NCBI GenBank assembly: GCA_026986455.1
Contig: JALSON010000202.1
Coordinates: forward strand, 1 to 10,799
From: Thermococcaceae archaeon
Lineage (GTDB): Archaea > Methanobacteriota_B > Thermococci > Thermococcales > Thermococcaceae
Length of the DNA: 10,799 nucleotides
Reading direction: 5' to 3'
The notes under the pieces are model-generated. The model worked only from the letters and a program-made list of their open reading frames with translations, searched no databases and was not told the origin of the DNA. Positions 5,807 through 10,523 of this stretch are shown here, piece after piece (within the stretch, counting starts at the first letter, position 1; each line of letters opens with the position of its first letter). A program made the translations under genes and the position numbers.

Positions 5807-6286
5807 ATGAGTGAAGAGAGGAGAGAACTGGAAAAGAGAATTGCAAAGCTGTGCAAATACATAGGGAGATCACCCTGGGTGTTTCACGTTAACAGCGGGT
5901 CATGCAACGGATGTGATATTGAGATTATCGCGGCGCTGACTCCAAGGTATGACGCCGAGCGCTTTGGTGTGAAACTGGTTGGAACCCCAAGGCACGCGGA
6001 TATCCTGCTGGTGACAGGGCCGATCACCAATCAGAGTCTGGAGAGGGTCAAGTTGGTCTACGAGCAGACACCGGAGCCAAAGGTCGTGATGGCAATTGGG
6101 GCCTGTCCCACAGGCGGCAGCGTTTTCTTTGAGAGTCCATTCACCAACGCACCCCTGGACAGGCACATCCCTGTGGATGTCTTCATCCCAGGGTGTCCTC
6201 CAAGACCGGAGGCGATCCTCCACGGTGTTGTTTTAGCCTTAGAGAAGCTTATAAAAAAGATAGAAGGTGAAGGTGAGAAGAAATGA
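5807..6286 (+). CDS. mbhJ: Mbh hydrogenase small subunit, NuoB-like [4Fe-4S] protein
   Basis: A 159-residue small subunit of the [NiFe] hydrogenase, homologous to NuoB of complex I. It carries the proximal [4Fe-4S] cluster, which passes electrons to the NiFe site in MbhL. The four ligand cysteines are visible: Cys33 and Cys36 in SGSCNGCDIE, Cys100 in GACPTGG and Cys130 in IPGCPPRPEAIL. Like other energy-converting small subunits it lacks the long C-terminal region and signal peptide of uptake hydrogenases. The start ATG 5807 lies four bases after mbhI with a GGGGGTGAGCGG region upstream. Confidence 0.97.
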   Translation: MSEERRELEKRIAKLCKYIGRSPWVFHVNSGSCNGCDIEIIAALTPRYDAERFGVKLVGTPRHADILLVTGPITNQSLERVKLVYEQTPEPKVVMAIGACPTGGSVFFESPFTNAPLDRHIPVDVFIPGCPPRPEAILHGVVLALEKLIKKIEGEGEKK

Positions 6287-6804
6287 CTCCCGAGGAATTC
6301 ATTGAGAGAATAAAGGAGAAGTTTGAGGTTGACGCTCACATTTCCGAGAACAAACAGCCCCACCCGAGGAAGAGGGCCTGGATAAACGTGGACAGGACAA
6401 AGTTCGAAGACCTTATGAGGTTCATAAAGGAGATTGACCCTCGCGCACAGTTCTCAATCATAATAGGCGAGGACAGGGGAGACTATCTAAGCGCGGAATA
6501 CCACCTAGAGCTGTTCTATGAGGAGGAGCCAAGCCTGTCCGTGATAGTCGCGACTTCATGCCCCAAAGACGACCCAAAAATACCGAGCCTGGGTGATGTA
6601 TTCCCGAGCTCAGTGCCTTACGAGCGTGAAAACAAGGAATTCCTTGGAATCGAGTTTGAGGGAATCCCCGACCCGAGAAGGCTCTTCCTCCCGGACGACT
6701 TCCCGGAGGGAGTCTATCCGCTCAGGCGGGACGATACAGGCATCAAGCCAGAGATGGTGAAAAACGCAGGGCATCCTTATAAGATAGGGGGTGGAAGGAA
6801 ATGA
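6283..6804 (+). CDS. mbhK: Mbh hydrogenase subunit K, NuoC-like
   Basis: A 173-residue peripheral subunit of the NuoC (30 kDa) family that supports the small and large subunits. The family signature is present as YERENKEFLGIEFEGIPDP (113-131) followed by RRLFLPDDFPEGVYPLRRDD (132-151). The C-terminus is MVKNAGHPYKIGGGRK (158-173), and the same motif reappears, diverged, in the next frame at 7005-7058. The gene overlaps mbhJ by four bases. The last codons (GGGGGTGGAAGGA) double as a ribosome site for the ATG at 6801. The gene seems full length, so the odd junction that follows does not obviously damage it. Confidence 0.93.
   Translation: MTPEEFIERIKEKFEVDAHISENKQPHPRKRAWINVDRTKFEDLMRFIKEIDPRAQFSIIIGEDRGDYLSAEYHLELFYEEEPSLSVIVATSCPKDDPKIPSLGDVFPSSVPYERENKEFLGIEFEGIPDPRRLFLPDDFPEGVYPLRRDDTGIKPEMVKNAGHPYKIGGGRK
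6754..6787 (+). repeat. First copy of the MbhK tail motif
   Basis: These bases encode MVKNAGHPYKI at the true end of mbhK. The second copy lies 251 bases downstream (7005-7038). Of the nine codons identical in amino acid between the copies, six differ in the third base, so this is not a fresh tandem duplication. Confidence 0.75.
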
Positions 6805-7058
6805 TGACCCTTCAGCAGGTTCACACTCATTCTGCGCCTGAATGGCGCCTTTTACTGGTGAACAAACGCCCGGAGCCAATTAATGAAACACCCATTCTAA
6901 ATAATGCAGGTATGGCAGTGAGGGAGTTTCCGCCAGCGCTCGTTGGGAGCAAAGCTCCCGATGTGTTGAGGCAAGAGCCTCAACATGCGCAAGCAAGGGC
7001 TGTGATGGTGAAGAACGCGGGTCACTCGTACAAAATGAGAAGGGAGGGCTCAAGATGA
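6801..7058 (+). CDS. 85-codon frame bridging mbhK and mbhL, ending in a second MbhK-like tail
   Basis: The frame starts at ATG 6801 inside the mbhK stop (ATGATGA) and ends at TGA 7056-7058, overlapping the mbhL ATG, so it keeps 4-base coupling on both sides. Residues 1-68 match nothing I recognise and run through three DNA hairpins, which suggests non-coding origin. Residues 69-85 (MVKNAGHSYKMRREGSR) clearly resemble the MbhK C-terminus. It may be translated as a bridging peptide, since a good ribosome site precedes it. Alternatively it is a scar: the end of another mbhK allele joined to mbhL, with foreign or mobile DNA between. P. furiosus-type operons, as I know them, have no gene here. Confidence 0.45.
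   Translation: MMTLQQVHTHSAPEWRLLLVNKRPEPINETPILNNAGMAVREFPPALVGSKAPDVLRQEPQHAQARAVMVKNAGHSYKMRREGSR
6819..6863. repeat. Extended stem-loop GTTCAC-GCGCC / GGCGC-GTGAAC
   Basis: The outer arms GTTCAC (6819-6824) and GTGAAC (6858-6863) share the same symmetry centre as the inner arms GCGCC (6834-6838) and GGCGC (6844-6848), with a TGAAT loop. The arms are separated by a symmetric 9-base internal loop. Confidence 0.6.
6945..6959. repeat. Hairpin GGGAGC-AAA-GCTCCC
   Basis: A perfect 6-base-pair, GC-rich stem with a three-base loop, five bases before the next hairpin. Confidence 0.65.
6964..6985. repeat. Hairpin with 9-bp stem and AAGA loop
   Basis: The arm TGTTGAGGC (6964-6972) is perfectly complementary to GCCTCAACA (6977-6985) around an AAGA loop. 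It lacks a following T-run, so it is not an ordinary intrinsic terminator, but it could affect readthrough into mbhL or be a transposon end. Confidence 0.7.
7005..7038 (+). repeat. Second, divergent copy of the MbhK tail motif
   Basis: These bases encode MVKNAGHSYKM, matching the mbhK end at 6754-6787 with one substitution within the first ten residues but many silent changes. The copy is followed by GGGAGGG, which serves as the ribosome site of mbhL, so this segment looks like the original upstream neighbour of mbhL. Confidence 0.75.
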
Positions 7059-8350
7059 ACAGCAGGATTGAGTACTGGGTTAAAATACCCATAGGCCCCA
7101 TTCACCCCGCCCTGGAGGAGCCCGAGAAGTTCATAATAACCCTTGATGGAGAGCGTATAATCAACGTTGACGTGAAGCTCGGATACAACCTGAGGGGCCT
7201 TGAATGGATTGCGATGAGGAGGAACTACATACAGCTCATGTATCTGGCGGAGAGGATATGCGGGATATGCAGCTTCTCACACAACCACACCTATACAAGG
7301 GCCGTTGAGGAGATGGCCGGCATAGAGGTGCCGGAGAGGGCGGAATACATAAGGGTAATTGTGGGCGAGCTTGAGAGGATTCACTCCCACCTGCTCAACC
7401 TTGGGGTCATCGGCCACGCCATAGGTTACGATACGGTTCTCCACCTGAGCTGGCTTGCGAGGGAGAGGGTCATGGACATCCTTGAGGCCATAGGCGGGAA
7501 CAGGGTTAACTACGCCATGAACACAATTGGAGGTGTCAGGAGGGACATCGAGGAGAAGCACAGGAGGGCCATCCTCGACATGATAGCCTATTACAAGAAC
7601 GAGATCATGCCAAAGATAGAGGAGATATTCCTGTACGATCCAACGGTCGAGGCCCGTTTGAGGGATGCCGGTGTTATTCCAAAGAGGATAGCGATTGAGT
7701 ACAGCGCCCAGGGGCCCACGGCAAGGGGAAGCGGCGTGAAGAAGGATGTGCGCTACAACGAGAGGCTCGGCGTTTATCCCGACCTCGGCGTCAAGCCGGT
7801 AACCCCCAAAGAATTCACGGGTGTCATAAAGGGGGACGTTTTCGACAGGATGGTCGTCAGGGTCGGCGAGCTCTGGCAGAGCATGGAGCTCATAGAGAGG
7901 GCCTTTGACCAGATGCCCGGGGGCAAGATAAAGGCCTTTGCCAAGGACAACCTGATTCTCCCCAAGCTGAAGAAGGCGGATGGAGAGGGAATAGGGCGTT
8001 ATGAGGCCCCGAGGGGTGAGGTCATACACTACGTGAGGGCAAACCCGGGGAAGGACATACCCTCAAAGTGGAAGGCGAGGGAGCCGACATTTCCAAACCT
8101 CTTCGCGGTTGCAAGGGCCCTGGTCGGCGAACAATTGGCTGATGTGCCGGTTGCAATAGCCTCAATTGACCCGTGTTTGAGCTGTACGGACAGGGTGGCG
8201 GTTGTGGATGCAAGAACCGGAAAGAGGGGGATTTTAACCGAGAAAGACCTCCTGAGAGCTTCAATCGAGAAGACGAGGGAAATCAATCCAGAGGTTAGTG
8301 CAAGACCCGAGGTGGTTGGTGTTAGCTGCCCAAGGGGTGATCTGCTATGA
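7055..8350 (+). CDS. mbhL: Mbh [NiFe] hydrogenase catalytic large subunit
   Basis: A 431-residue large subunit that holds the NiFe centre where protons are reduced to H2. The nickel ligands are intact: Cys69 and Cys72 in ERICGICSFSHNH and Cys374 and Cys377 in DPCLSCTDR, which separates it from the Mbx/Mbs and NuoD relatives that lack these cysteines. Other family marks are GYNLRGLEWI (43-52), ELERIHSHLLNLG and GPTARGSG. Glu21-Glu22 lie where MbhL has a conserved glutamate implicated in proton transfer. ATG 7055 follows GGGAGGG and overlaps the preceding frame by four bases; the usual coupling to mbhK is replaced by the inserted segment. It is soluble and peripheral, bound to J, K and M. Length is close to that of P. 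furiosus MbhL. Confidence 0.97.
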   Translation: MNSRIEYWVKIPIGPIHPALEEPEKFIITLDGERIINVDVKLGYNLRGLEWIAMRRNYIQLMYLAERICGICSFSHNHTYTRAVEEMAGIEVPERAEYIRVIVGELERIHSHLLNLGVIGHAIGYDTVLHLSWLARERVMDILEAIGGNRVNYAMNTIGGVRRDIEEKHRRAILDMIAYYKNEIMPKIEEIFLYDPTVEARLRDAGVIPKRIAIEYSAQGPTARGSGVKKDVRYNERLGVYPDLGVKPVTPKEFTGVIKGDVFDRMVVRVGELWQSMELIERAFDQMPGGKIKAFAKDNLILPKLKKADGEGIGRYEAPRGEVIHYVRANPGKDIPSKWKAREPTFPNLFAVARALVGEQLADVPVAIASIDPCLSCTDRVAVVDARTGKRGILTEKDLLRASIEKTREINPEVSARPEVVGVSCPRGDLL

Positions 8351-10019: not shown

Positions 10020-10523
10020 ATGGGATTTGCCACATCGTTCATATGGTCTCTGATCGTCTACCTAATACTAACAGCAGGCTCGGGAAGCATAATAGCATGG
10101 AGCCCGGCGGAGCTGATAGCCGGAGTGGTGATAGCAGCGATCATAGGCTATGCAACGAGGAACATCATGAGCGAAAAGCTCGATTACTTCTTCAATCCCA
10201 AGAGGTGGATACTGTTCATAGTGTATGCACTCGGTCCGTTCTTCTTTGCAATGGCAAAGGCAAACCTCGACGTCGCCTACAGGGTCATCACAGGCAAGAT
10301 CAGACCGGGAATAGTCAAAATCTCCCCGGGACTCACGAGGGATGAAAGCAGGACACTGCTCGCCAACTCCATAACCCTGACACCGGGGACGTTTACACTT
10401 GAGATTGACGATGAGGGTAACTTCTACGTTCACTGGATAAACGTCCCGCCAGGAAAGGAAAAGCCAACTCCTGAGGAGCTCTGCGGCTACCTTCCAAAAT
10501 GGGCAAGGAGGATTGCGGAATGA
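10020..10523 (+). CDS. mbxA: MrpE-like first subunit of a second Mbh-related complex, probably Mbx/Mbs
   Basis: A 167-residue MrpE-family membrane protein paralogous to mbhA. Both share the TRN(I/V) turn after helix two, the KANLDVAYRVITGKIRPGIV segment (79-98) and the SNSITLTPGTFTLEID region. Three N-terminal helices precede the cytoplasmic half. GAGGTGGG sits just before ATG 10020. A second complex that starts this way and has SurR control is most simply the Mbx/Mbs operon, whose complex reduces sulfane sulfur with ferredoxin electrons. A second Mbh-type hydrogenase cannot be excluded because the diagnostic large subunit is outside the window. Confidence 0.8.
   Translation: MGFATSFIWSLIVYLILTAGSGSIIAWSPAELIAGVVIAAIIGYATRNIMSEKLDYFFNPKRWILFIVYALGPFFFAMAKANLDVAYRVITGKIRPGIVKISPGLTRDESRTLLANSITLTPGTFTLEIDDEGNFYVHWINVPPGKEKPTPEELCGYLPKWARRIAE

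Follow-up and report, generated by a model that had tools for sequence, protein, structure and literature searches.

A hairpin repeat of Thermococcus probably occupies the overlapping mbhK-mbhL junction, with a duplicated gene end and a bridge frame kept open

The segment that separates mbhK from mbhL in the window (the whole 10,799-nt stretch of DNA analysed, which contains the mbh operon) is probably a copy of a Thermococcus repeat lodged between two overlapping genes, where a duplication rebuilds both neighbours and the copy itself stays free of stop codons so that ribosomes can pass. The repeat would have entered the stop/start junction, with a direct repeat arising upon insertion; the upstream gene end being duplicated, the upstream gene would therefore keep its 3' end, rebuilt from one copy, and the downstream gene would have a ribosome binding site and start of its own from the other. 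The element in between would remain stop-free in one frame, a ribosome finishing mbhK would reinitiate on the bridge and then again on mbhL, and copies gaining a stop codon would uncouple mbhL and be lost. Tolerance of the insert wherever the duplication rebuilds both neighbours is, in our opinion, the best reading of the data laid out below.

All of the features discussed lie on the forward strand. According to the open reading frame list and the junction survey, mbhK (6283..6804; Complex1_30kDa, Pfam PF00329) runs into a bridge open reading frame of 85 codons (6801..7058), which, in turn, runs into mbhL (7055..8350; NiFe hydrogenase/Complex1_49kDa by Pfam), and the ATGA overlaps that the initial annotation had placed at either end of this frame are indeed found at 6801-6804 and 7055-7058. 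The tail of mbhK serves as the left copy of the direct repeat (6753..6804) and holds a Shine-Dalgarno-like GGGGGTGG (6787-6794) along with the first ATGA overlap. As seen from the sequence comparison, the right copy (7004..7058), which makes up the last ~54 nt of the bridge, duplicates the 3' end of mbhK in diverged form (33 nt, 6753-6785 vs 7004-7036, 76% identity). It encodes the peptide MVKNAGHSYKMRREGSR, and both a Shine-Dalgarno-like GGGAGGG (7042-7048) and the start of mbhL lie in it; over their last 20 nt, the tail copies of the window differ from each other. Enclosed between both copies is the repeat element proper (6805..7003), delimited from homologous inserts and with a putative left edge. 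Its predicted fold comprises hairpin 1 (6819..6863; GTTCAC at 6819-6824 facing GTGAAC at 6858-6863, with an inner GCGCC/GGCGC), for which pair counts are given further on, and a right-end hairpin (6930..7002; CCGCCAGC...GGGCTG), which, judging from related copies, is expanded by a pair of additional hairpins (6945-6959 and 6965-6984). The stretch 6927-7002 has a second match in the window's own genome (88%, 76 nt). It had also been argued that such a frame would hardly stay open by chance, and this is borne out by mononucleotide shuffling, in which the bridge interior is open in that frame in 2% of the shuffles, a figure that rises to 5% for the 199 nt remaining once the duplicated tail is set aside. 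Further downstream in the window, 10020-10523 encodes a second MbhA/MrpE-like protein resembling the one at 1415-1936, so the mbh operon appears to be followed by another antiporter-type operon.

The junction was compared across genomes by seeking MbhL in 94 genomes of the family, which resulted in 86 K-L junctions being read in 86 genomes (84 scripted and two by eye); G006 and G033, which had no MbhL match at the cut-off, and G016, G017, G078, G105, G107 and G117, whose MbhL matches were truncated, weaker or more distant, were left out of the set. An insert is present in 18/86 junctions, and the remaining 68/86 are empty. Every one of the 18 inserts starts with an ATGA on the mbhK stop, ends with an ATGA on the mbhL start and is open in between, while an ATGA was seen in 54 of the 66 empty junctions scored. 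MbhL itself falls into two types, 83-100% and 71-79% identical to that of the window, with occupied junctions in 8/43 and 10/43, respectively; among the named records, two of nine readable K-L junctions, both from Thermococcus MAGs (L028 and L141, which are also within the 18), hold an insert. The extra segment noted at this point of the window is thus real, and homologous inserts do sit at the same site in other assemblies, as the junction comparison suggested in the initial annotation had been meant to find out; what does not hold in the wider family is its uniqueness. An assembly artefact is unlikely, precisely because inserts at the same junction recur in other assemblies. Nor was the common non-coding spacer with frameshifts, named in the initial annotation as a refuting result, found at K-L; at pyrB-pyrI, two copies out of 11 are frame-shifted but remain open beyond the following start.

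The history of the insert appears to be at odds with that of its flanks, at least as far as pairwise identities can tell: between G031 and G093 the insert is 90% identical vs 75% for mbhK and 83% for mbhL, and between the window's genome (G000) and G031 it is 77% identical vs 86% and 90%, which is compatible with a hot spot where copies arrived repeatedly or were exchanged. In three empty K-L junctions (L147 of G082, L159 of G032 and L165 of G001) the mbhK tail reads GGGGGTG..AAGAAATGA or close to it, like the left flank of the inserted copies, and these tails could be either excision footprints or the pre-insertion state.

A direct repeat accompanies 12 K-L copies out of 18. In seven of them it spans 17-20 nt on either side and ends with the ATGA, in two it covers 33 and 38 of the final 40 nt, and in three, to which the window's copy belongs, ~30 nt of mbhK are repeated, with the last 20 nt before the ATGA being different. 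Seen by length, the duplicated mbhK piece is longer (~30-50 nt) in five K-L copies, the window's among them, whereas in most of the K-L and pyrB-pyrI copies with a duplicated gene end it is ~18-20 nt and comprises the Shine-Dalgarno sequence and the stop/start. No clear direct repeat was evident in the remaining six (L153, L166, L197, L102, L103 and L122), and in two of the copies lacking it (G035 and G012) the right flank resembles the end of mbhK at empty sites. Recombination may also have contributed at K-L, given these six copies and the three in which the last 20 nt differ. The direct repeat as such is most readily taken as a target duplication made on insertion, an interpretation drawn from the arrangement of the sequences. 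For the tRNA-linked copies of the family, which are described below, a scan reaching 1450 nt gave no direct repeat with a score of at least 13.

The cleanest case of empty vs filled sites is pyrB-pyrI, a junction that is occupied in the window's own genome as well; of the 30 genomes read, 22 are empty there and eight are filled. Five of the empty junctions read CTGGGGGTGCTGTGA-ATGGCC, and the filled ones carry that stretch, or a close variant thereof, on each side, so that an 18-19 nt repeat with a Shine-Dalgarno sequence, stop and start is seen at the filled sites. When three further copies found via the hairpin are added to the eight from the 30-genome set, the stop/start spacing is restored at both ends within 1 nt in nine of the 11, and the other two are shifted by one or two nt, being open 13-14 nt beyond the pyrI start; the bridge frame is open to the next start, or 1 nt short of it, in 11/11. 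Other occupied junctions include gene pairs resembling mbhI-J and mbhJ-K (named by resemblance) and a pair that we take to be hisB-hisH. The bridge is exact at some of these other junctions (L113, L251) and stops 4 to ~13 nt before the next start at others (the first copy of L027, L064, L118, L125 and L259). In L104 (G089) and L121 (G003) the right hairpin lies in a gene junction without an evident hairpin 1, the flanking genes presumably being those of the S8 and L6 ribosomal proteins.

What makes the insert recognizable as a member of a family is its right-end hairpin, the consensus of which is TTTCCGCCAGCGCTTTGCGAAGCAAAGGGCTG. When up to three mismatches were allowed, 49/94 family genomes contained this hairpin and none contained the reversed control pattern; with a covariance model it was detected in 71/94, among them 59/61 of the genus (Thermococcus), and in 0/9 of the genus g12. 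Outside operons, the distance between the end of the copy and the 3' end of a tRNA gene is 1-6 nt in 38/55 non-coding cases, the arrangement being convergent in 38/38, and in a second sample 16/21 copies adjoin a tRNA 3' end. The right flank has a TGG (the complement of CCA) among its first 12 nt in 43/55 non-coding and 22/33 operon copies. In other genomes, one tRNA-Leu gene and three tRNA-Pro genes are adjoined by forms 86-90% identical to the window's expanded right hairpin. Hairpin 1 is present in both non-coding and operon copies (a strict search finds it in 35/87), and several copies have a Shine-Dalgarno sequence starting 1-3 nt after the right hairpin. To the right of the hairpin in L049 (G061) and L053 (G025), apparent partial tRNA 3' halves, not whole genes, were noticed, which may be attachment sites from integrated elements. 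G007, with 19 hairpin matches the richest of the 94 genomes, has long composite stretches of tRNA-linked elements (L052, L081-L084), some of them with inverted end hairpins.

A search of Rfam with 600 nt around the insert and with seven of the loci gave no match to the element at the gathering score, the only hits being neighbouring tRNA and sR36. A terminal-inverted-repeat transposon was considered and rejected, as a hairpin-type inverted left copy within 900 nt was found in only 4/47 non-coding and 0/23 operon copies. No match to a carrier was obtained among plasmids (the query being one tRNA-linked copy), phages (the window's element) or viral contigs (one exact hairpin pattern).

Both hairpins show signs of pairing being conserved, to a degree that depends on how the rows were chosen. 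A first count for hairpin 1 gave 58 cells changed on both sides vs 21 +- 3.9 in shuffles, and it leans towards structure because its rows were largely picked by a search demanding pairing (35/87 passed); the repeat counts, on which our conclusions rest, employed sets not chosen for pairing. In the full set of 52 non-coding copies, chosen solely by position, paired cells make up 82.7%, and 45 cells are changed on both sides, where shuffles give 16.1 +- 6.4 and slid controls no more than 16; for the same 52 copies, two other measures (pairs with a change on both sides, 147/500, and pair types, 439/500) were not above shuffles. Within the 18 K-L copies the outer helix of hairpin 1 pairs in 94% of cells, and the only pair varying on both sides (A-T in eight, G-C in seven) possibly reflects a single event between the two MbhL types. 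As for the outer pairs of the right hairpin, one is C-G in 66 and G-C in 14 of 83 copies and another is G-C in 67 and A-T in 13 of 83; these switches follow subfamilies and may be few events.

That operon copies stay open is best appreciated against the non-coding ones, where, over the same 158 nt, 15/159 forward frames are open vs 18/18 for K-L (Fisher test, 6e-16), a value that overstates the case because the copies share ancestry and 18/18 does not amount to 18 independent events. The separate pyrB-pyrI junction, with its 11/11, points in the same direction. The 158-nt count leaves aside operon rows L085, L104, L105 and L121, which lack hairpin 1 or do not lie in a simple gene junction, and the first L103 copy, whose position is too near the end of its locus. 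Seven of the 28 operon copies counted have no open frame over the fixed 158 nt, namely, L125 and six pyrB-type copies with a frame that begins within that stretch.

Whether the peptide itself matters is a separate question. Six bridge open reading frames of equal length (15 pairs) have 168/184/177 changes over codon positions 1/2/3, whereas the flanks in the same six genomes have 33/13/163 (mbhL, 57 codons) and 52/13/307 (mbhK); the third-position bias expected under purifying selection is, hence, not seen in the bridge of this group, and its dN/dS is 0.44-0.94 vs 0.00-0.22 in the flanks. For nine mbhK-L copies aligned by protein, dN/dS spans 0.32-1.35, or 0.46-0.79 when the window's copy is one of the pair; the row of that copy ran two codons past the stop, affecting its last column only. 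The right hairpin, moreover, is read in three frames in different copies (FRQRFA, SASALR, FPPAL). Because of the even changes over codon positions and the use of three frames through the right hairpin, openness and folding, rather than the peptide, seem to be what is kept in the six-copy group, and the “selected bridge peptide” proposed earlier finds no backing as regards its sequence; because dN/dS is below 1, a weak amino-acid constraint may nevertheless exist. In the duplicated mbhK tail of the window, 7/8 differences fall at third codon positions (letters counted), for which protein constraint, or exchange with mbhK, are possible explanations suggested by the pattern. The “accessory MbhK-like peptide” of the initial annotation is otherwise explained by the duplicate of the mbhK tail seen in five K-L copies. 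The “tamed insertion” it had offered as another option is supported in part: a repeat family, empty and filled sites, many direct repeats and 18/18 open frames speak for it.

Of the other explanations, a genuine small protein gene, with the bridge peptide as a conserved accessory subunit, could draw on all 18 K-L copies being open, on the similarity of the first half of the peptide in several copies (VHxHSAPxGR), on dN/dS below 1 in most pairs and on the third-position bias in the duplicated tail. It appears very improbable to us all the same, given the codon-position and dN/dS figures of the six copies and the three frames through the right hairpin, and given that the peptide has no Pfam match and just one foreign relative (P0002) in a search of ~5.8 billion proteins. 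An adaptive regulatory cistron, whose hairpins and short bridge frame would set the ratio of the flanking proteins (e.g., MbhL to MbhK), deserves somewhat more attention, since the junctions of one enzyme complex (K-L and the pairs resembling I-J and J-K) are repeatedly occupied, the right hairpin ends right before the Shine-Dalgarno sequence in several copies and hairpin 1 is kept; however, most K-L junctions (68/86) do without it, unrelated pairs, pyrB-pyrI among them, are occupied as well, and the hairpin is identical in kind to that beside tRNA genes, which leaves this explanation an unlikely one.

The tRNA linkage invites another thought, namely, that the right hairpin is recognized by an RNA-processing or termination factor and that the mRNA of operon copies is cut or pauses there. 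The closeness and invariably convergent orientation of the hairpin with respect to tRNA 3' ends, as well as the second sample, would agree with such a processing site, but the modelled hairpin is on the strand opposite the tRNA, and a site with no function beyond processing would have no need of the open frame retained by the K-L copies, making this reading quite improbable. The same linkage might point to an archaeal SINE-like element, i.e., a structured RNA at tRNA 3' ends being copied back into DNA, where its 3' hairpin would be constant, its 5' part less long than in tRNA-linked copies and its direct repeats of variable length; it would survive in operons because both genes are rebuilt from the duplicated target and translation can run through the insert. 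Attractive as it may be, we would put little trust in this scenario at present.

If a repeat rebuilding its neighbours is what occupies these junctions, then tightly coupled operons can take up a repeat harmlessly, the stop/start overlap being doubled and no protein fusion formed, and the filled junctions would provide a natural test of whether coupling is selected independently of any peptide. There is, besides, the repeat itself to consider: literature searches retrieved no description of a hairpin repeat family between overlapping genes and otherwise at tRNA 3' ends, and this repeat, tied as it is to tRNA 3' ends, is present in 59/61 genomes of the genus. Among known systems, it resembles MITEs in being small and multicopy, in having no protein gene of its own that could be seen and in having direct repeats at many operon sites, but, unlike MITEs, it generally lacks terminal inverted repeats of the hairpin type, and the direct repeats of MITEs are usually shorter and less variable than its ~18 to 50 nt. 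It shares with REP sequences and with IS200/IS605-type end hairpins an imperfect end hairpin as the most conserved part; IS200/IS605 elements, to our knowledge, make no target duplication.

Closer in what becomes of the reading frame are the Rickettsia palindromic elements (RPEs), which are short palindromic repeats found in coding DNA with the frame kept open (PMC10969869). Both they and the Thermococcus repeat are short palindromic repeats that keep a frame open, but RPEs are fused in frame inside single genes, whereas the Thermococcus element, in its K-L and pyrB-pyrI copies, lies between two genes, with a separate bridge frame and a doubled stop/start. Palindromic frame-keeping repeats are known from Rickettsia, and it is the doubled stop/start between overlapping genes that was not found in the literature searches, as far as the portions of the sources at hand go. 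The gene pairs concerned belong to the overlapping ATGA pairs with termination-reinitiation, strict coupling having been reported for 13/14 pairs tested in Haloferax and E. coli (PMC6728339), and both the majority of the empty K-L junctions scored and the two ends of all 18 bridges are of this overlapping type: by means of an inserted repeat, one ATGA pair has become two in series.
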